Source of the DNA: Thermoplasmata archaeon
GTDB lineage: Archaea > Thermoplasmatota > Thermoplasmata > Methanomassiliicoccales > Methanomethylophilaceae
Assembly: GCA_015063235.1 (NCBI GenBank)
Contig: SUSW01000021.1
Span: forward strand, 1 to 64,000
Direction: 5' to 3'
DNA: 64,000 nt
Of this stretch, positions 9,522 to 47,944 are shown in pieces (the stretch's first letter is position 1; each line of letters begins with the position of its first letter). The notes under the pieces were generated by a model, which was not told where the DNA came from, made no database searches, and was given only the letters and a program-made list of their open reading frames with translations. A program made the position numbers and the translations under genes.

Positions 9522-10130
9522 ATGAATATAATCTTCTGCAGAGAATGTGGGAATCCGATTAAAAATGATGAGTCGTTGGATCAGATTTATTGTAACAAAT
9601 GTGGCGCGAAGAATGATGCTAAGTTTAGCGCCCTTAGATGCAAATTGTGTGGCAGATCATTTGGAGATGCGGCATATATCTTCTGCCCTCTGTGTGGTAC
9701 CACTCTAATTGCCAATCCGGTTATCCTGGATTCGTGGGATTACAACACTTCTAATGCTATATGCTCTTGTGGGAATCATATCCATTTTGACGAAGGGGTG
9801 TTCAGAATAGTTTGTGATAGCTGTGGCAAAAGTAACTCCAGAACACACTATCCTTCACATATTTTTGAAGTAGTTATAACCCAATCAGCTATTGACTTCT
9901 CCAGATCGTTCAGGATTCTTCTTAAAAAGTCGCGTTCTTTCGATATCACGGAAGCGGGCAGATATCAATTCATCCTGACCAACGCCATCTATGATCTCTC
10001 TATAGATATAGGTGGCATGAATTGCTATGACAATCGTTTCACCACTTTTGAGAATAAGCGTTTGGAAGTGAAGTACAATAATTCCAACAATACGATCGTA
10101 ACAGAACTTCAGACGCTGTACTTGTATTGA
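9522..10130 (+). CDS. Multi-zinc-ribbon protein with C-terminal beta domain
   Basis: 202 residues. Three CxxC ribbon units fill the first 105 residues (CRECG/CNKCG, CKLCGR/CPLCG, CSCGN/CDSCGK). The C-terminal half is predicted mostly beta strand (FEVVITQSAIDFSRSFRILL...YQFILTNAIYDLSIDIG) and is not recognised. The ATG at 9522 is preferred to the GTG at 9504 because GGTGAT lies about 5 bases upstream of it. The 266-base gap that follows is AT-rich, without a visible gene, and holds the promoter of the next operon. Confidence 0.6.
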   Translation: MNIIFCRECGNPIKNDESLDQIYCNKCGAKNDAKFSALRCKLCGRSFGDAAYIFCPLCGTTLIANPVILDSWDYNTSNAICSCGNHIHFDEGVFRIVCDSCGKSNSRTHYPSHIFEVVITQSAIDFSRSFRILLKKSRSFDITEAGRYQFILTNAIYDLSIDIGGMNCYDNRFTTFENKRLEVKYNNSNNTIVTELQTLYLY

Positions 10131-10396
10131 TTGGTCAAATACTGATCGTCCGTGTCTCTGATTATGATTAGTCAATGCAATCATCGAGTAGTTTTTAATG
10201 ATATAACCTGGGTTTACCTGATAGAACAATCTCGTATGTACTTGGATTATGTGCCTATTTGACTTCGACACAGACTGAATTTGCTATTTCTCTATTTGGG
10301 AGTAATAGAAGATAGAATTGGTTGATATTGGATATATTTTCCTATTCTGTTGGAAGCATTATTAATGTTGTTATTTGATTCGGCTTCAGTGGTTTG

Positions 10397-39505: not shown

Positions 39506-40966
39506 TCAGTTGTCCCAGTTGACACCGTTGGGAATGTCGGGGTGCTTTTCGTGGTTCCACTTCTGGATTCCGTACCAGATGGGCACGTAGATAAGGATGG
39601 AGAATGCTGCGATGACGCAGTATGCTACTCCGGAGTACGTGTAGAGGTACCAGAACAGCGATGGCAGGAAGAGGAAGAACTCCAAGATGACGATTCCCGT
39701 GGAGATTCCGACGAATCCCTTGGGGCACTTGTAGATCCTCTCAACATCCTTGAAGCGGGGGTCCTTGCGCGACTTGATGAAGGCCAGCTGACAGAGTCCG
39801 TGGGTGATGACGTATCCGGGACAGGAGATTGCGAGGGTCTCGCTTGCTGTGAGTCCTGAGAGGATGACGAGGAATCCTGCTCCTGCCTGGAAGAGCAGAG
39901 CGTTTACGGGAACTCCGTATTTGTTGGTCTTTGAGAGCCAGAGGGGCATGTGTCCGTTGGAGGCCATGACCTGGATGGTCCTCGAACAGCCCTGCATTGA
40001 GGTCTGGACGATGACGATCATTCCGACCATCAGGAGTAGTGTGGCTATGAGTCCGACTGTTTCGCCGAAGCTGTTCTCGGCGATGACGGCAAGACTGGTC
40101 GCCCCTGCTGCTTCGATTCCCTCGGGTCCGAGTGTTCCGTACACTGCGAATGAGATGAGGAAGTACAGGACAAGACATGCGATACCGCACATGATGAGTG
40201 CCTTGGGGACATCCTTTGCGGGCTCCTTGTATTCGGCACCGTATGTGGCTGCGGTCTCCCAACCTACTGCGCTCCACTGAGCGATGGTCAGAAGCGAGAG
40301 GATGAGAAGGAAGGCGTTGCCGTCCCAGACCCAGTCTGTAGGTGTGAATTTGTCGATTATGACGTCCATGTGGAAGTCTCCCATGACGAAGGGTGCGCAG
40401 ACTATGACCACAAGGGGTATGATTGTGAAAAGTGTGAGGATCATCTGGAATTTGGCCCCTCCCTCCAGTCCCTTCAGACTGGTTCCGATGGTGTAAGAGT
40501 ATACCGCTACACCGAGGAGGAGGTAGAATCCTGTTTCCATCCAGCCTTCCAGTTGAAGGTCGAATGCGTCGATAAGGTAGTAACCTACCATGATAGTGAA
40601 GATCGGGATGACAGTGAACCATGCGACGAAATAGCTCCATGCGCCTAAGGCCCCTATGAGTCTGCCTGTGTTGATCTTTTTGTTCTTATACTTCTCATCA
40701 TCCTCGAAGACATACTGGATGGATCCTCCCATTCCAGCGACTCCGAATGTTGCGCACAACTCTCCGATAGGGAGGTTGATGAAGAATCCTGAGATAACCG
40801 ATATCACCCAGACCGCAATGCTCATTCCCCAGAGAGGGATGGACATATCTGCGATCGAAGGCATGATAAGGATAGGAACTCCCATCGCAACGATGAGACC
40901 CTGCTTCCATGTGAGCGTACGGGCCAACTGGCCTGCACCTGACTGGGCTTCTGCTGTTTCAGACAT
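39506..40966 (-). CDS. APC-family amino acid/amine permease, candidate methylamine transporter
   Basis: 486 residues with about 12 transmembrane helices. The first are GLIVAMGVPILIMPSIADM, WGMSIAVWVISVISGFFINL, LIGALGAWSYFVAWFTVIPIFTIMVGYYLI; TM6 region has WSAVGWETAATYGAEYKEPAKDVPKA, the conserved APC stretch. It lies on the same strand as, and downstream of, chlDI, within the mttBC locus. Its promoter carries the ATGTTGA motif shared with mttB. Import of trimethylamine is therefore a reasonable but unproven guess; amino acids are the alternative. GAGGTGA precedes the ATG. Confidence 0.8.
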   Translation of the reverse strand: MSETAEAQSGAGQLARTLTWKQGLIVAMGVPILIMPSIADMSIPLWGMSIAVWVISVISGFFINLPIGELCATFGVAGMGGSIQYVFEDDEKYKNKKINTGRLIGALGAWSYFVAWFTVIPIFTIMVGYYLIDAFDLQLEGWMETGFYLLLGVAVYSYTIGTSLKGLEGGAKFQMILTLFTIIPLVVIVCAPFVMGDFHMDVIIDKFTPTDWVWDGNAFLLILSLLTIAQWSAVGWETAATYGAEYKEPAKDVPKALIMCGIACLVLYFLISFAVYGTLGPEGIEAAGATSLAVIAENSFGETVGLIATLLLMVGMIVIVQTSMQGCSRTIQVMASNGHMPLWLSKTNKYGVPVNALLFQAGAGFLVILSGLTASETLAISCPGYVITHGLCQLAFIKSRKDPRFKDVERIYKCPKGFVGISTGIVILEFFLFLPSLFWYLYTYSGVAYCVIAAFSILIYVPIWYGIQKWNHEKHPDIPNGVNWDN

Positions 40967-41080
40967 ATTTTCACCTCAGTTCGATGCCATGCCAATAGGG
41001 GCTGCTGCCAGACGTCCCCTAGAGTCCTTCTTTCATAGCGCTCGTTCTGTTAAGATTGAGAAGTTTATCCATCAATATAA

Positions 41081-41104
41081 ATGTTGAGTACTCCATATTT
41101 ATAG
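41081..41104 (-). promoter_or_regulatory. Permease promoter with TACTCAACAT motif
   Basis: On the minus strand a TATA box (CTATAAATAT, 41104-41095) is followed directly by GAGTACTCAACAT (41093-41081), placing the motif at the expected transcription start. The same ATGTTGA/TCAACAT word is repeated in the mttB control region. Confidence 0.5.
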
Positions 41105-41140
41105 TGCTGGCCAATTTAAAACAATATAAATATAGAAAAC

Positions 41141-41162
41141 GGTCCAGAAGTCTGGACCTTTG
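41141..41162 (-). terminator. Terminator of chlD
   Basis: GGTCCAG-AAGT-CTGGACC hairpin at 41141-41158, directly after the chlD stop, followed on the minus strand by an AT-rich tract (GTTTTCTATATTTATATTG). Confidence 0.65.
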
Positions 41163-41168
41163 GGTTTT

Positions 41169-42995
41169 TCAAAGGATGTTGTCGGACGATCTCAGGTCCT
41201 CGAGCTTATAGTAAGGGGCCTCGAGGGCATAGGACAATCTGAGAGCTTTCTCGTTGGGCTCGTTGGATACCTTCGTATCTACGAGTACACAGTCCATCCT
41301 GTCAAGACGGAGGTGCGATGCTATCTCTATCGATTCCTCAAGAGGGTCGTTGCCTTCCGTGAGCGCAATATTGGCTCCGGCATCGGTCATCAGGATCACG
41401 AAGGCCACATCTGAGGGATGCTTTCTGAGATACTGCCCCACATACTGATGCATGAAGGACAGGGCTTCGCTCAGAGGGGTCTTCTTTCCCGTGGGGATGT
41501 CATCCACTACCTTCTTGACACCGCCGACCGAACGGGTCGGAGGGAGAAGCATGCCTACGAATTCTTCGTTGAAGGTCATGACAGCAACGCTGTCTTTACG
41601 GACATAGTGGTCGGCCAGCATCGACATTATTGCGGCCTTCACAGCACGCATGCGGGCTCTGATGACCAGCGATCCGCTGTTGTCCACCATGAAGAAGAAC
41701 AGGCATGAGGTATGCTTCTCACGAACCTTCTGTCTGAGGTCCGACGGCATGATTATGACGCCGTCCCTTCCGGTGAGCTCTCTGCGGCGGTTCTGATACG
41801 GTGCCGCGGTACGGATCGTGGCATCGATGGCGAGATCCTCTGTCGAATCATTGGCCGGACGGGACGAGACATATCTCCCCTCCTTTCCTGCACCTTTTAT
41901 GAAACGGCGCAGCTGCTGTGCGTCCATTTGATTCTTCTTCTTACGGCTGTCATCCAACAGGTCGATGGTGTCGAAGATCTTGTCCATCTCCAGGACGACC
42001 TTCTCGTCCGGATCATCGCTATCCTTGCGCAATTTGACAGGCTCGGAACCTGGTGTTTCGGAAACGGGGGTAGGCGTTTCGTCGTACATGTCGTCTTTCT
42101 TCATCTTGTCGACGAACTCCTTACGTTCGTCATGGATGAAACGCTTCATATGCGAATCACCGAAGAACAGGACCCGGTCCTCCACCATCTTCGGATCCTT
42201 CTTATGTCTGGTGCGGCGGTGTATGACGCATACCCTGAGGGCGAAGGACAGGTCGTCTTCATTAACCTCGGTCCTTCCGTCAAGAGCGGCTGATGCCTTG
42301 CACACTCTGGCCACTGCGAGCTCGCCGCGGTGTCCCTGCATGCCGAACCTGTCGCCAGCTTCAACTATGGCCTCTAGGATGCTGTCGTCTATGGTCACTT
42401 TGCTGATGATAGATTTGGCCTTCTCGATGCTGTCGATCAGCTTCTCATCTATCTTCCCCTCTTCGAACGTATCGGAGTATACTGCCTTCATCACATCCAC
42501 TCTCTTCTTGCAGTCCGGATCACGGGGGATGACCACACACATGTCGAACAGGTCGTTCAGCGATGATGACAACGGCTGCTCGCGATCGTTGGCCGTCGCC
42601 ACTATACGTACCGAGCAGGGGTATGATTTGGATACGCCTTCCCTTTCGATATGGACCTCTCCTCTGCAGGCCGACTCCATCAGTGTAAGGGAGGTGTTCC
42701 TGGGCAGTAGGTTGATGTCATCCACTAACAGTATTCCACTGTCCCCGCCGAGAAGTCCTGGTTCGAACTGGGCAACACCTGTCGTGAGCATCTCTTCCAG
42801 GTTTATGCTTCCGAACAGCTGCTCATCCGTGATGTTCTGGGGCACCACCTTAGCCCTTTTGCCTGTGCATGCCCACGAGAATGAGTGGATGAACGATGAT
42901 TTACCGGAACCTGAAGGTCCTTTGATTAAGACGCCGTGGAGGTCGGGGCTGGCCATAAGGCACGTCAGTGCGCGGAGGGCATCCTCCATCCCCAC
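41169..42995 (-). CDS. chlD: Magnesium/cobalt chelatase subunit ChlD-like (AAA+ plus VWA)
   Basis: 608 residues from GTG 42995 (ATG two codons later). AAA+ domain: Walker A GPSGSGKSS near residue 25, Walker B-like ILLVDDINLL near 90, and ATANDREQPLSSSLNDLFDM. Acidic, charged linker (residues 270-400). C-terminal von Willebrand A domain with intact MIDAS residues: DNSGS, the Thr in GKKTPLSEAL, and the Asp in LMTDAG. ChlI/ChlD pairs drive metal insertion by ChlH or CobN. In a methylamine user the corrinoid (CobN, cobalt) role is likelier than chlorophyll; the large subunit is not in the window. Confidence 0.88.
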   Translation of the reverse strand: MGMEDALRALTCLMASPDLHGVLIKGPSGSGKSSFIHSFSWACTGKRAKVVPQNITDEQLFGSINLEEMLTTGVAQFEPGLLGGDSGILLVDDINLLPRNTSLTLMESACRGEVHIEREGVSKSYPCSVRIVATANDREQPLSSSLNDLFDMCVVIPRDPDCKKRVDVMKAVYSDTFEEGKIDEKLIDSIEKAKSIISKVTIDDSILEAIVEAGDRFGMQGHRGELAVARVCKASAALDGRTEVNEDDLSFALRVCVIHRRTRHKKDPKMVEDRVLFFGDSHMKRFIHDERKEFVDKMKKDDMYDETPTPVSETPGSEPVKLRKDSDDPDEKVVLEMDKIFDTIDLLDDSRKKKNQMDAQQLRRFIKGAGKEGRYVSSRPANDSTEDLAIDATIRTAAPYQNRRRELTGRDGVIIMPSDLRQKVREKHTSCLFFFMVDNSGSLVIRARMRAVKAAIMSMLADHYVRKDSVAVMTFNEEFVGMLLPPTRSVGGVKKVVDDIPTGKKTPLSEALSFMHQYVGQYLRKHPSDVAFVILMTDAGANIALTEGNDPLEESIEIASHLRLDRMDCVLVDTKVSNEPNEKALRLSYALEAPYYKLEDLRSSDNIL

Positions 42996-43009
42996 GAATT
43001 GATCGGTAC

Positions 43010-44047
43010 TTAGGATCCCAGATACCCCCTTAGGATACTGTCCAGTTCATTCTGTTTGAACTGGGCCTCCTCGAACGGTCCTGCCTTCATACGGTGGCGG
43101 ATGATCAGCGGAGCGGTGCTGGAGATGTCCTGGAACGTGATCTCGTCTCTCCCCTCTAAAGCGGCATTGGCCTTGGCAGCGCGAATCATAGCGAGGTCCG
43201 CGCGGTGTCCTTCCATCCTGTAGTGTATGGACGTCATGGCTATGGCGGTGAGCACTTTGTCCGACATATGGACCTTGCCGACCAGCTCCTTGGCCTTGAT
43301 TATTTTGTCACGAAGGGCAGCAGTATCGTCTTTGCACTCTTCTACAAATGATTCGGGGTCGGCATCGAATGCGAGCCTTCTCTTGATGACCTCGACCCTG
43401 GTGTCAGGGTTAACTTCGCTCTTGATATCTACACACATTCCGAATCTGTCCATGAGCTGGGGACGAAGGATACCCTCTTCGGGGTTCATGGATCCGATGA
43501 GCACGAATCTTGCAGGATGGGAGAACGAGATGCCTTCCCTTTCAACAAAGTTACGGCCCATGGCAGCGGAATCAAGGAGAAGGTCAACGATATGGTCATC
43601 CAGCAGGTTGACTTCATCCACATACAGCAGGTTGCCATTGGCCTGTGCGAGGACTCCTCCCTCGTACTTTCTCTCACCTGTACGGAGAACATGTTCCACA
43701 TCGAGGCTTCCTGAGATACGGTCTTCCGTAGCGTTCAGCGGAAGCTCGACAACCTTCATAGCGCGCATCGATGTCTTGTAACCTCCCTTTTTGATGCGTT
43801 CTTTGCAGTCATCGCAGAGGTATCTATGGTTCTCGGGGTTGCAGTGAAACTGACATCCTTCTATATAGGGTACATCAGGTAATATCTGTATTAAAGAGCG
43901 AACCGTGGTGGATTTAGCGGTCCCCTTTTCTCCGCGAAGAAGCACTCCTCCGATACCCGGATCTATTATGTTCAGAAGCAGTGCGCGTTTCATCTCTTCC
44001 TGTCCTACTATACGGACAAAGGGGAATTGCAGATTGTTTTCACTCAT
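43010..44047 (-). CDS. chlI: Magnesium/cobalt chelatase subunit ChlI-like AAA+ ATPase
   Basis: 345 residues from ATG 44047. Walker A GEKGTAKST near residue 40, Walker B YVDEVNLLDDH near 140, sensor region LIGSMNPEEGILRPQLMDRFG. Includes the ChlI insertions around the four-Cys cluster (CQFHCN...CDDCKERI), which probably binds zinc. It forms a ring with ChlD and powers chelation of a metal into a tetrapyrrole or corrin. Divergent from mttBC across a 280-base control region, suggesting joint regulation of corrinoid supply and the corrinoid-dependent methyltransferase. Confidence 0.9.
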   Translation of the reverse strand: MSENNLQFPFVRIVGQEEMKRALLLNIIDPGIGGVLLRGEKGTAKSTTVRSLIQILPDVPYIEGCQFHCNPENHRYLCDDCKERIKKGGYKTSMRAMKVVELPLNATEDRISGSLDVEHVLRTGERKYEGGVLAQANGNLLYVDEVNLLDDHIVDLLLDSAAMGRNFVEREGISFSHPARFVLIGSMNPEEGILRPQLMDRFGMCVDIKSEVNPDTRVEVIKRRLAFDADPESFVEECKDDTAALRDKIIKAKELVGKVHMSDKVLTAIAMTSIHYRMEGHRADLAMIRAAKANAALEGRDEITFQDISSTAPLIIRHRMKAGPFEEAQFKQNELDSILRGYLGS

Positions 44048-44325
44048 GTTATCGCCGTAACTATCCATTGGATGGATGGATGCTCCATGTTGACGGATAT
44101 ATTGTACTACTCATTAAAAAATGTTGTAGTGTGCTGTTTTTATATTGATTATATCTATATTTAATGTTGAGAGCATCAATTTATTATGTTGAGGCTAACT
44201 TCAATTATGTTGACGAATCAATGATTTTATATAGTTATGGTGACATCTCAACATTAGACAGAACGGGACGAGCGCCCGAGAGTCAAAGGCCGCTTTTGCG
44301 GTGAAATAATGGAGGAATGAAAAAG
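44048..44325. promoter_or_regulatory. Divergent chlI/mttB control region with repeated ATGTTGA motif
   Basis: ATGTTGA occurs at 44087-44093, 44164-44170, 44186-44192 and 44207-44213, an ATGTTGT variant at 44121-44127, and the inverted TCAACAT at 44248-44254. The ATGTTGT copy lies in a dyad ACTAC...GTAGT (44106-44130). A TATA box TTTTATATAG at 44225-44234 puts the mttB start near 44258, next to the inverted copy. The mttB leader (about 44258-44325) contains a CCGC-TTTT-GCGG hairpin, then GGAGG before the ATG. Array-like repeats suggest cooperative binding by a regulator, such as the MarR protein encoded downstream of mttC (inference). Confidence 0.6.
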
Positions 44326-45825
44326 ATGGTAAGCAAGCACTACCCCGGAAGGCAGAAAACATCCGGAATCAAGATAGAGCTTTTTAGCGAAGACGACATC
44401 CGCGAGATCGATTACGCCACCAGAGATGTTCTGGCAAACTATGGAGTTCAGGTTTCCGATGAGGAAGGACTTCAGGTATTCAAGGACGCAGGATGTGAGG
44501 TCAACTTCGAGACCAAGATGGTCAAGATCCCCTCAAAGCTCATCAACATGGCTCTTGCAGCAGCCCCTAAGATGTTCTACCTTTACGGACGTGACGACGA
44601 GCACACCGTCCCCATGATCCACTCAGGACCCGTCTACTACACCAACTTCGGTACCGGAATCCAGATGTGCGACTACCTCGGAGACAACAAGTACAAGACA
44701 AGGGACTCCAACGAAGAGGACCTCGCCAACACAGCAAAGATCGTAGATGCTCTCCCCAACCTCGCAGTCTACTCCCTCGCAGTTTCCGCAAGGAACTGGG
44801 CTGGAGTCGGAGCTGAGGATGTCCACGAGATGATCACATCGATCAAGAACACATCCAAGCACTTCCACCACATCGACCCCGTTGCAGAGAACGTCGAGTT
44901 CTACTGGGAGATGCTCAAGGCATACTACGGCGGAGATGAAGAGATGGCACGCAACAGGCCCATCATGTCCATGCTTGTCTGCCCCACATCACCTCTCGAG
45001 CTGTCACACAACGCCGCTCAGGTCATCATGAAGGGAGCAAGGCTCGGAATCCCTGTCAAAGTCCTTTCAATGGCAATGGCTGGAGGATCCTCACCTATCC
45101 ACCTCACCGGAACACTCGTTACCCACAACGCTGAGATCCTCTCCGGTCTCGTACTGGCTCAGCTTGCCAACCCCGGAGCACGTGTTCTCTACGGAAGTTC
45201 AACAACAACATTCGACCTCAGGAACGGAACCGCACCTGTCGGATCACCTGAGCTCGCAGTCATCTCTGCAGCCGTCGCCAAGCTCGGACAGTACTACGGA
45301 CTGCCCGTCTTCACAGCCGGTATGTAGACCGACGCTAAGATCCCCGACTCCCAGGCAGCACACGAGAAGTCGATCACATCACTTCTCCCCGCAATGTCCG
45401 GTGTCAACCTCATCTACGGATCAGGTATGCTCGAGTTGGGACAGACCTTCTCCATGGAGCAGGTTTGCATCGATAACGATATCATCGAAATGAACTACAA
45501 AGCAATGGAAGGAGCCCCCGTCACAGACGAGACCCTGGCCGTTGACGCAATCAAGGAGATCGGAGTCGGAAACGATTTCCTTGCACACGAGACCACAATG
45601 GAGCACTTCGAGTCCGCATCCAACCCTAAACTGTTCGACAGGACAATGCTCGGAGAGTGGATGAACAACGGATCCAAGAGCTGTGTTGAGAGGGCTCACG
45701 ACATGGTCGTAGACATCATGGCCAACCACGTCGTCAAACCTATTCCCGAAGACCGCCTCGCAGCAATGGAGGAGGTCGTTAAACAGGCTGACGCCGCTTT
45801 CAGAAAGAGAAAAGGAATGGAGTGA
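44326..45825 (+). CDS. mttB: Trimethylamine:corrinoid methyltransferase with pyrrolysine at codon 334
   Basis: 499 residues if the in-frame TAG at 45325-45327 is read as pyrrolysine. Start at ATG 44326 (GGAGG 10 bases upstream); this makes the amber codon number 334, the known pyrrolysine position of MttB in Methanosarcina barkeri, which supports both start and identity. Flanking sequence LPVFTAGM[18 protein letters not shown] is family typical. The TIM-barrel enzyme transfers a methyl from trimethylamine to Co(I) of MttC, giving dimethylamine. An ATG three codons upstream lies too close to the ribosome site. Highly biased codons (GGA, ATC, AAG) indicate strong expression. Directly followed by mttC. 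Confidence 0.96.
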
Positions 45826-45830
45826 TTTAA

Positions 45831-46493
45831 ATGGCATCAACAGAAGACATATGCGCAAGAGCAAAAGCAGCAGTAATGGCATACAAAGTACCTGACGCAA
45901 AGAAGATCGCAGAGGAAGCAGTCGCATCCCCTGATGTCGACCTCGTCAAAGTCATCCAGGAGGGCTACTCCGCCGGAATCACAGAGGTCGGAAAGCTCTT
46001 CGATGCAAAGAAGATCTTCCTGCCCCACATGATGGCAGCCGCTAACGCTATGACCGCCGGAATGGACGTCATCGTCCCCGAGATCGAGAAGCGCGGTGGA
46101 TCCGTCGGAGAGGGACTCGGAAACGTCGTCATCTGCTCAATCGAGGGAGACATCCACTCGATCGGAAAGGACATCGTCGCAATCATGCTCAAGGTCGCCG
46201 GATTCAACGTCTTCAACATCGGAAGGGACGTTCCCCTCGGACAGATTGTACAGGCATGCAAGGACAACGACGCAGTCGCATGCGGAACCTCTGCACTCAT
46301 GACCTCAACCATGGTCGGCCAGAAGACCCTGGAAGAGATGATGGTGAAGGAAGGCCTCAAGGGCAAGTGCAAGACCAACGTCGGTGGAGCACCTGTTACC
46401 CAGCAGTGGGCCGATGAGATCGGAGCAGACATCTACTCTGAGAGTGCGAACGACGCTGTCGCAAAGTTCACAGCGGTATTCTCTGACGCCTGA
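45831..46493 (+). CDS. mttC: Trimethylamine corrinoid protein
   Basis: 220 residues. Helical N-terminal cap (residues 1-85) then a Rossmann-like B12 domain with the cobalt-ligand motif EGDIHSIGKDIV (DxHxxG, His about residue 105) and the later SxL (CGTSALMTSTM) and GG (NVGGAPVT) motifs that hold the nucleotide tail. It accepts the methyl from MttB and passes it via MtbA to coenzyme M. Begins 5 bases after mttB. A terminator follows. Confidence 0.95.
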   Translation: MASTEDICARAKAAVMAYKVPDAKKIAEEAVASPDVDLVKVIQEGYSAGITEVGKLFDAKKIFLPHMMAAANAMTAGMDVIVPEIEKRGGSVGEGLGNVVICSIEGDIHSIGKDIVAIMLKVAGFNVFNIGRDVPLGQIVQACKDNDAVACGTSALMTSTMVGQKTLEEMMVKEGLKGKCKTNVGGAPVTQQWADEIGADIYSESANDAVAKFTAVFSDA

Positions 46494-46513
46494 AATTAAA
46501 CAAAGGGGCTACC

Positions 46514-46550
46514 CCCCGCAGTGCCAGCTGCGGGGAAGCCTGGTTTTTCC
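46514..46550 (+). terminator. Terminator of mttBC
   Basis: CCCCGCAG-TGCCAG-CTGCGGGG hairpin (46514-46535) followed by AAGCCTGGTTTTT. It lies 20 bases after the mttC stop. Confidence 0.75.
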
Positions 46551-46646
46551 TTCTTTACCTGGAGTGTGGCCCCTTTGATACCCTCAACTTTGATATACGA
46601 AAGTGAGGAACCAACGTTTTTAAACAACGAACTAAATGCGGGTAAT

Positions 46647-47204
46647 ATGCCTGAGAGAGAGGACGTCTATTGGAACTCTTTTTTGCCGGCGTTCTTCGAC
46701 AGGATGAGCCTGGTCATGCGTAAGAACATGACCGAGATCGTGTCAGATTACGGTCTCACCAGTGCCCACGCAGTCTATCTCATTGCATTGCACCTCAGAG
46801 ACGGTCAAACCCTTGTGAGCCTGTCCCGTTTCCTGGATCTTGATACGGCGAACACCAACCGTGTGGTCAAGGTTCTCAGGGAGAAGGGGCTGATATACGA
46901 TGACCGTAAGTCCGAGTCCAGCAAGAAGTATTCGATCTTCCTGACCGAGGAAGGCCATGAGCTGGCTGCCAAAGTCATGAACGGGATCACGGATCTTAAC
47001 AACAGCTACTTCCGCGACATTCCGAGAGAGGATATCCTCCAGATGAGGAACACTCTTATCCGCGTCCTGAACAACATGAACACCGACATCGATAGTTACA
47101 TGGGTTCGAAGTACGAGGATCCGTTCTACACGCACCTTCACATCATTCCGCCTGCGGACGGATACGAGGCAGAATCCATCCGTGTGCAGACTAGGAAAAA
47201 GTGA
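46647..47204 (+). CDS. MarR-family transcriptional regulator
   Basis: 185 residues. Winged helix with VYLIALHLRDGQTLVSLSRFLDLDTANTNRVVKVLREKGLIYDDRKSESSKKYSIFLTEEG, the MarR recognition helix and wing. The N-terminal dimer helices are present. ATG 46647 lies about 27 bases after TTTTTAAAC, a probable TATA element, so the message is leaderless and an upstream in-frame extension is not used. CTCAAC words occur in its promoter. By position it is the best candidate regulator of the methylamine genes (inference). Confidence 0.85.
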   Translation: MPEREDVYWNSFLPAFFDRMSLVMRKNMTEIVSDYGLTSAHAVYLIALHLRDGQTLVSLSRFLDLDTANTNRVVKVLREKGLIYDDRKSESSKKYSIFLTEEGHELAAKVMNGITDLNNSYFRDIPREDILQMRNTLIRVLNNMNTDIDSYMGSKYEDPFYTHLHIIPPADGYEAESIRVQTRKK

Positions 47205-47329
47205 GCATTCAGCAGAACGCATCTGTTGGATGTAATGGTTTCCCTTTCGAACTATGTGAAAAACTTGACTAATATTTATGTCTGGCTCAGCATTTTTCGA
47301 TATTGACTACTCAATATTATGTTGGATGA

Positions 47330-47358
47330 ATTAGGTAATATTTTTTATATTGCCTAAT
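47330..47358. promoter_or_regulatory. Inverted repeat over flavoprotein promoter
   Basis: ATTAGGTAATA (47330-47340) and TATTGCCTAAT (47348-47358) form an 11-bp dyad with one G/T mismatch. They enclose the TATA box TTTTTTATAT, 25-30 bases before ATG 47372. A repressor bound here would block TBP. TACTCAATATTATGTTGG just upstream repeats the methylamine-locus word. Confidence 0.6.
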
Positions 47359-47371
47359 GAATGACAATTGT

Positions 47372-47944
47372 ATGGGAAAGATAGTGGCAGTCGCTTGTAG
47401 CCCAAAGGCAGACGGTTCGTCCTCGCGCATCACGGATGCGTTTTTGGATGGAGCTATGGGGCTCTCTACGAATTTCATCACACTTCACAGGTTGGTGAAA
47501 TGCAAGTCTATTTACGACTGTCGCCGTAACATGGCATGCAAATCTAAAGGAAAATGTGTCTTGAATGACGATCTTACAGAGGTCCTTGAGGATATCGAGA
47601 CTGCCGACTGCGTCGTATTCGCAACTCCCATATATTTTGACGGGCCCTGTGCTCTCTACAAGATGCTCGAGGACAGGATGTACGGATTCCTGGATACCGA
47701 GATGCACTCTGTTCTGGCACCGGGGAAGAAGGCCCTGCTCATCGTCACAAGCTATTATCCGGAAACAGATCTCCCGGATATCGCAGGCAGACTCGCCAAG
47801 AATCTGGAGACTTTCGGATTCGATCTCATGGGCGTTATAACATACTGCGACCACATGGGTACTGAACCTGTGGAGAAGAACGAGGTGCTTCTCCATCATG
47901 TGAAACAGATGGGCCTCAAGATGCGTAACACTCCAACGGTGTGA
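47372..47944 (+). CDS. NADPH-dependent FMN reductase/iron-sulfur flavoprotein-like
   Basis: 190 residues. Flavodoxin-like fold: VAVACSPKADGSSSRITDAFLDGA (FMN phosphate loop), then the Cys-containing KCKSIYDCRRNMACKSKGKCVLNDDL, which resembles the Fe-S cysteine cluster of iron-sulfur flavoproteins, then ADCVVFATPIYFDGPCALYKMLEDRM (isoalloxazine site). It likely shuttles electrons from F420/ferredoxin or handles O2 or peroxide stress. ATG 47372 suits the TATA box; an ATG at 47357 would lie inside the operator dyad. Confidence 0.8.
   Translation: MGKIVAVACSPKADGSSSRITDAFLDGAMGLSTNFITLHRLVKCKSIYDCRRNMACKSKGKCVLNDDLTEVLEDIETADCVVFATPIYFDGPCALYKMLEDRMYGFLDTEMHSVLAPGKKALLIVTSYYPETDLPDIAGRLAKNLETFGFDLMGVITYCDHMGTEPVEKNEVLLHHVKQMGLKMRNTPTV

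Follow-up and report, generated by a model that had tools for sequence, protein, structure and literature searches.

A TTGA-N4-TCAA dyad in methylamine-gene promoters of Methanomethylophilaceae and a MarR-family protein as its candidate regulator

The window, a stretch of 64,000 nucleotides, belongs to a host genome of 1.78 Mb in 54 contigs and carries a trimethylamine methyltransferase locus. The closest match of its mttB gene in the named collection comes from Thermoplasmata archaeon assembly SIG3 (94%), and several other close matches bear the title Methanomethylophilaceae or Methanomassiliicoccaceae, of the order Methanomassiliicoccales. The genes of the locus are as follows.

39506-40966, minus strand: APC-family permease, probable methylamine transporter (putative substrate)
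41169-44068, minus strand: chelatase ATPase pair, chlD-like (41169-42995) and chlI-like (43010-44068), divergent from mttB
44317-45825, plus strand: mttB, trimethylamine methyltransferase, with an in-frame TAG (pyrrolysine) at 45325-45327
45831-46493, plus strand: mttC-like corrinoid protein gene
46647-47204, plus strand: MarR-family protein, candidate regulator (Pfam scores a little under the curated threshold; resembles MarR proteins in fold and sequence)
47357-47944, plus strand: FMN-reductase/flavodoxin-like protein (flavoprotein gene), start codon more likely at 47372

The initial annotation had pointed to a heptamer, ATGTTGA/TCAACAT, with four direct copies and one inverted copy between chlI and mttB and one more in the permease promoter. 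All of these are present: the direct copies begin at 44087, 44164, 44186 and 44207 of the plus strand, the inverted one at 44248, and the permease copy at 41081. For the chlI-mttB gap (248 bp, from the chlI start at 44068 on the minus strand to mttB at 44317), these five heptamers compare with a shuffle mean of 0.11 and a maximum of 2 in 5000 shuffles. Over the entire 64-kb window the excess is mild (19 heptamers versus 10.8 expected, with 2 of 100 shuffles reaching 19), and two further copies, at 44543 and 46213 inside the mttB and mttC coding sequences, are probably due to chance. Genome-wide, TTGANNNNTCAA alone occurs in 16 places versus 14 for the control, i.e., with no bulk enrichment; the longer string TCTCAACATT, found in 4 places, 2 of them in the chlI-mttB gap, was uninformative and was set aside.

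When both strands are read, the heptamer is an arm of an 18-bp dyad, ATRTTGA-N4-TCAAYAT, with the core TTGA-N4-TCAA; this larger unit, of which the heptamer is the half-site, had been missed. Moreover, the heptamer is a minor half-site variant, ATATTGA being commoner. The dyad was taken as the unit and the heptamer was dropped, because relatives keep TTGA-N4-TCAA and not the heptamer. The following promoter elements were recognised in the window.

41061-41078, minus strand: second permease dyad, 20 bp downstream of the first; the same 20-bp pair occurs in L007 and L008
41081-41098, minus strand: permease-promoter dyad ATATGGA-GTAC-TCAACAT, touching a TATA-like box at 41096-41103; counterparts at 4777 of L007 and 2390/2410 of L008
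44087-44093, plus strand: single heptamer close to the start of chlI, without a visible dyad partner and possibly a half-site
44166-44180, plus strand: upstream dyad GTTGA-N5-TCAAT, containing most of heptamer 44164
44188-44205, plus strand: in-phase half-site farther upstream, holding heptamer 44186; as a dyad (GTTGA-N8-TCAAT) it is poor
44207-44224, plus strand: dyad ATGTTGA-CGAA-TCAATGA, immediately preceding the mttB TATA box; counterparts in L007, L008, L128 and L143
44226-44233, plus strand: probable mttB TATA box TTTATATA, read from the sequence and also a pattern hit
44237-44254, plus strand: dyad ATGGTGA-CATC-TCAACAT, between the TATA box and the expected mttB transcription start, containing the inverted heptamer 44248
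47300-47317, plus strand: perfect dyad ATATTGA-CTAC-TCAATAT upstream of the flavoprotein gene, its centre 39 bp before a TATA-like box at 47344-47351

The flavoprotein dyad has no mismatch to the consensus, those at 41081-41098 and 44237-44254 have one, and those at 44207-44224 and 41061-41078 have two. The near copy ATGTTGG claimed earlier for the flavoprotein promoter does exist (47319-47325), but the relevant element there is the perfect dyad directly upstream, by which it was replaced. The TATA-like box of this gene is also surrounded by an inverted repeat, ATTAGGTAATAT/ATATTGCCTAAT (47332-47360 in the window), which is absent in L007 and is perhaps a second, local operator.

At mttB the dyads 44207-44224 and 44237-44254 flank the TATA box, 30 bp centre to centre, and the same distance is found in L007, L008, and L128. 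Farther upstream follow two or three additional dyads or half-sites in steps of 21-22 bp; the whole geometry, with centres about 21 bp apart and then 30 bp across the TATA box, is shared by the window, L008, and L128, and partly by L007. In six mttB promoters taken together, 11 N4 dyads and 12 N5 dyads were counted against about 0.45 expected for each, a level reached by none of 300 shuffles; spacers 1 and 7 were also above the shuffles in these six promoters (4 each), mostly as overlapping readings of the same sites. A shared leader sequence, ACAGAACG...GAGCGC, follows the dyad both at the permease (41038-41051) and at mttB (44258-44276) and is kept in the permease leader of L007.

The whole genome contains 18 dyads with at most two mismatches versus 8 for a reversed control pattern, and 5 of the 18 fall between 41061 and 47317. 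Allowing up to three mismatches, the window holds 10 dyads versus 10.2 by chance, i.e., no excess; given these chance-level counts, the signal sits in the good matches. In a scan of the 64 kb with a site matrix, filled from relatives' sites that had themselves been picked by match to the consensus, the top four positions were four dyads of this locus (scores 17.6-25.8), the next best scoring 12.4. Two weaker dyads (9.4 and 12.4) are located at 10124-10178, upstream of a 309-aa ORF without a Pfam match.

Because the consensus came from the genome's own sites and those of a few relatives, other loci were used to test it. The spacer was examined in 24 of the relatives' 30 MarR loci, namely those that had no part in deriving the motif; all had earlier been scanned with the fixed consensus. 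When up to one mismatch was allowed, 9 matches had spacer 4 and none of 12 other spacers had more than one; when up to two were allowed, spacer 4 gave 22 and the other spacers 3 to 16. Seventeen of these 22 spacer-4 matches fall in the 600-bp-upstream set, which makes up 42,095 of the 338,307 bases. In the same loci, 150 permuted palindromes gave a mean of 2.3 and a maximum of 15 matches (mean 0.83 and maximum 7 in the upstream set).

Target genes were analysed with a query set comprising corrinoid protein, mtmB, mttB, permease, chlI/chlD, and MarR genes, and with 48 sites from 40 additional stretches that had been selected because relatives carry a site there. Of these sites, 19 are located no more than 500 bp upstream of a query-set gene, versus 65 of 1629 random positions (4%) in the same stretches, a contrast that is somewhat flattered because the random positions include coding DNA. 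None of the other 29 stands before a query gene; in L198 a further site lies ahead of a gene of the URO-D family, to which methylcobamide:CoM methyltransferases belong. When about 80 bp around each of 63 distinct strong sites of relatives were examined for partner dyads, 25 were counted versus 4.8 expected, paired sites being entered from both ends; the distances were 20, 30, 40, 44-50, 59-62, and above 70 bp. Finally, within the family, 33 genomes with an orthologue of the window's MarR protein have a mean of 2.73 sites and 27 genomes without it a mean of 0.85 (Mann-Whitney p = 8e-5, kinship among the genomes being ignored), the control pattern giving 0.21 and 0.37, respectively, in the same genomes.

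Enrichment of the motif upstream of methyltransferase genes, which the initial annotation had proposed to test, is seen in relatives for mtmC-mtmB and corrinoid-protein operons. In the host genome it is seen for one mtmCB promoter, on contig 47, with a site scoring 20.4 about 330 bp before mtmC and a weaker site 20 bp on, but not for the mtbB/mttB/mtmB cluster of contig 51, where the site scan and matrix found no good dyad near the second mttB operon, mtbB, or mtmB. In L209 (2895), L214 (3119), L221 (3032), and L158 (7242) the site precedes mtmC by about 320-460 bp, and TATA-like boxes lie in the interval. The dyad is also present in the promoter of a SocA/Panacea-domain gene, both in the host genome and in four relatives (L161 3704-4308, L200, L204, L205, and L217), one of the five domain assignments being just below the Pfam cut-off. 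On contig 35 of the host genome (L162 4980-5022), another MarR gene has a TATA-like box with a GTTGA-N4-TCAAC dyad on either side, and in L232, from another family, two near-perfect dyads surround the TATA-like box in the promoter of a 520-aa ORF beside a MarR homologue. A perfect dyad on contig 17 (L159 5848) adjoins no recognised methyl gene, in a stretch that appears to lie between tRNA genes. For several other neighbours of sites the Pfam search gave no family.

The protein encoded at 46647 scores slightly below the Pfam cut-offs (MarR_2, 25.8 bits versus 27; MarR, 24.0 versus 24.6). A profile search with it retrieved 37 PDB sequences, the majority of which bear the name of a MarR-type regulator, and its model matches MarR structures in Foldseek (E about 2e-6). 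The predicted elements (H3-35, H39-50, H56-63, H67-79, E83-85, E96-99, H101-121, H127-142; mean pLDDT 71) form a winged helix-turn-helix (wHTH) with flanking dimerisation helices, as in the MarR family. Two motifs are invariant in eight orthologues: D-x-ANTNRV-x-K-x-LRE, which falls on the predicted recognition helix 67-79, and the N-terminal YWNSFLPxF. The sequence contains no cysteine; cysteine-based redox sensing is therefore unlikely, and a ligand would be a likelier signal than thiol oxidation.

The MarR protein is conserved like MttB in the closest relative (95% versus 94%) and its gene adjoins mttB in 7 of 54 fetched mttB loci, none of these cases being in Methanosarcinales records. Within the stretches fetched for the 30 MarR loci of relatives, mtt, mtb, or mtm genes are present in 19, a flavoprotein homologue in 24, and a dyad with at most two mismatches in 16, with none in the remaining 14. 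In the five other families, a MarR match at E 1e-20 was found in 1 of 40 genomes, and this match is the homologue that adjoins the 520-aa ORF of L232. No dyad with at most two mismatches lies in the MarR promoter of the window; one is located just upstream of the MarR gene in L136 and L137, as also at the contig-35 MarR gene. On contig 51 (L157 12583-13182) a paralogue (42%) is encoded just upstream of mtmB, and its own operator was looked for and not found.

Comparison of sequences establishes the dyad with its spacer and phasing, its place before methyl-transfer genes, and the tendency of dyad and MarR gene to occur together. The same site stands before several functionally linked operons and is conserved across genomes. 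The earlier proposal of a regulon under one shared factor is well supported by this cross-genome comparison (spacer, target genes, and co-occurrence); its members are not confined to the window, and the foremost candidate for the factor is MarR 46647. The initial annotation had named this protein as the possible factor, and it is indeed the best candidate by linkage, conservation, and co-occurrence; it is a candidate only, whose binding we infer. This neighbouring MarR-type protein probably binds the dyad, and we consider it likely that the dyad is the operator of a Methanomethylophilaceae methylamine regulon bound by MarR 46647 or a close paralogue; because the core is common to several MarR paralogues, we do not name one of them as the sole partner. 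A simple scheme is opposed by the missing dyads at the second mttB operon, at mtbB, and at the window's own MarR promoter, by the 14 MarR loci of relatives without a dyad, by the contig 17 site, and by the 29 sites away from query genes.

The protein would bind the dyad as a dimer and most likely act as a ligand-released repressor, where we infer binding, ligand, and sign, the sign with reserve, as site position relative to the TATA box varies. At the permease and mttB, dyads overlap the TATA box or follow it closely, where a bound protein would block TBP, TFB, or RNA polymerase. The upstream mttB sites, at 21-22 bp, stack on one face of the helix, which would favour cooperative binding. Release of the protein by an inducer, in the simplest case a methylamine, would turn on together the permease (uptake), mttBC (demethylation), the chelatase-like pair, and the flavoprotein gene.

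Several other explanations were weighed against this one. The view that the heptamers simply reflect AT-rich promoter DNA, or form a core-promoter element on which no regulator acts, agrees with the AT-richness of archaeal promoters and with the chance-level number of window dyads at up to three mismatches, but is very improbable in view of the gap shuffles, the spacer specificity, the permuted motifs, the target-gene enrichment, and the low site counts in MarR-free genomes of the same family. The dyad could also be a true operator for some other wHTH protein (an unlinked regulator, or a MarR paralogue like those of contig 51 and contig 35), the neighbouring MarR being incidental: the 42% paralogue adjoins mtmB on contig 51, the core recurs in the promoter of the contig-35 MarR gene itself, and in relatives MarR homologues of 53-57% identity also neighbour sites (L150, L152-L154). 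However, the contig-51 cluster beside the 42% paralogue is without the dyad, and it is the orthologue of MarR 46647 that tracks site number across genomes and is linked to mttB and the flavoprotein gene, which makes this explanation rather improbable.

The sign of the control may likewise be the reverse, dyads upstream of the TATA box recruiting TBP and TFB when methylamine is present. The array upstream of the mttB TATA box would fit, and the dyad 39 bp upstream of the flavoprotein TATA-like box (in the window and L007) and the distal sites before mtmC are so positioned as to suit activation or another role. Archaeal repressors, however, usually bind on or after the TATA box, and the permease pair, the site of the contig 15 Panacea gene, and the downstream mttB dyad overlap or follow it; activation thus appears doubtful, and repression by the MarR protein is preferred.

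The candidate resembles MexR of Pseudomonas aeruginosa, a wHTH protein as ours is by sequence and predicted fold; excerpts of PMC10609311 describe this MarR-family repressor with a GTTGA operator at mexA, a half-site of the same type at its target promoter. In contrast to MexR, the system described here has an archaeal TATA promoter, methyl-transfer targets, and N4 and N5 dyads in a phased array. Among solved structures the best sequence match, also one of the top fold matches, is a MarR protein of Methanosarcina mazei (PDB 3s2w; E 1.3e-11), at about 22% identity only. In Methanosarcina, according to excerpts of PMC11218639, MsrA-E and MreA control methanol or methylamine methyltransferase operons; control of methyltransferase genes is what they would share with the candidate MarR, and they differ in belonging to another archaeal lineage. 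No title or abstract on such a site or regulator in Methanomassiliicoccales was found in our searches of the open-access literature.

Tentatively, and on a reading that we regard as more speculative than established, the MarR-type protein may assemble cooperatively on the phased N4/N5 ladder over the mttB TATA box, sense trimethylamine through an aromatic pocket (YWNSFLPxF), and switch uptake, demethylation, and cofactor genes throughout the family. The site matrix could help to predict further members of the regulon, for example the Panacea-domain gene. The dyad would provide a readable cis-element for the switch-on of methylamine use in these methanogens, a process that consumes trimethylamine and makes methane.
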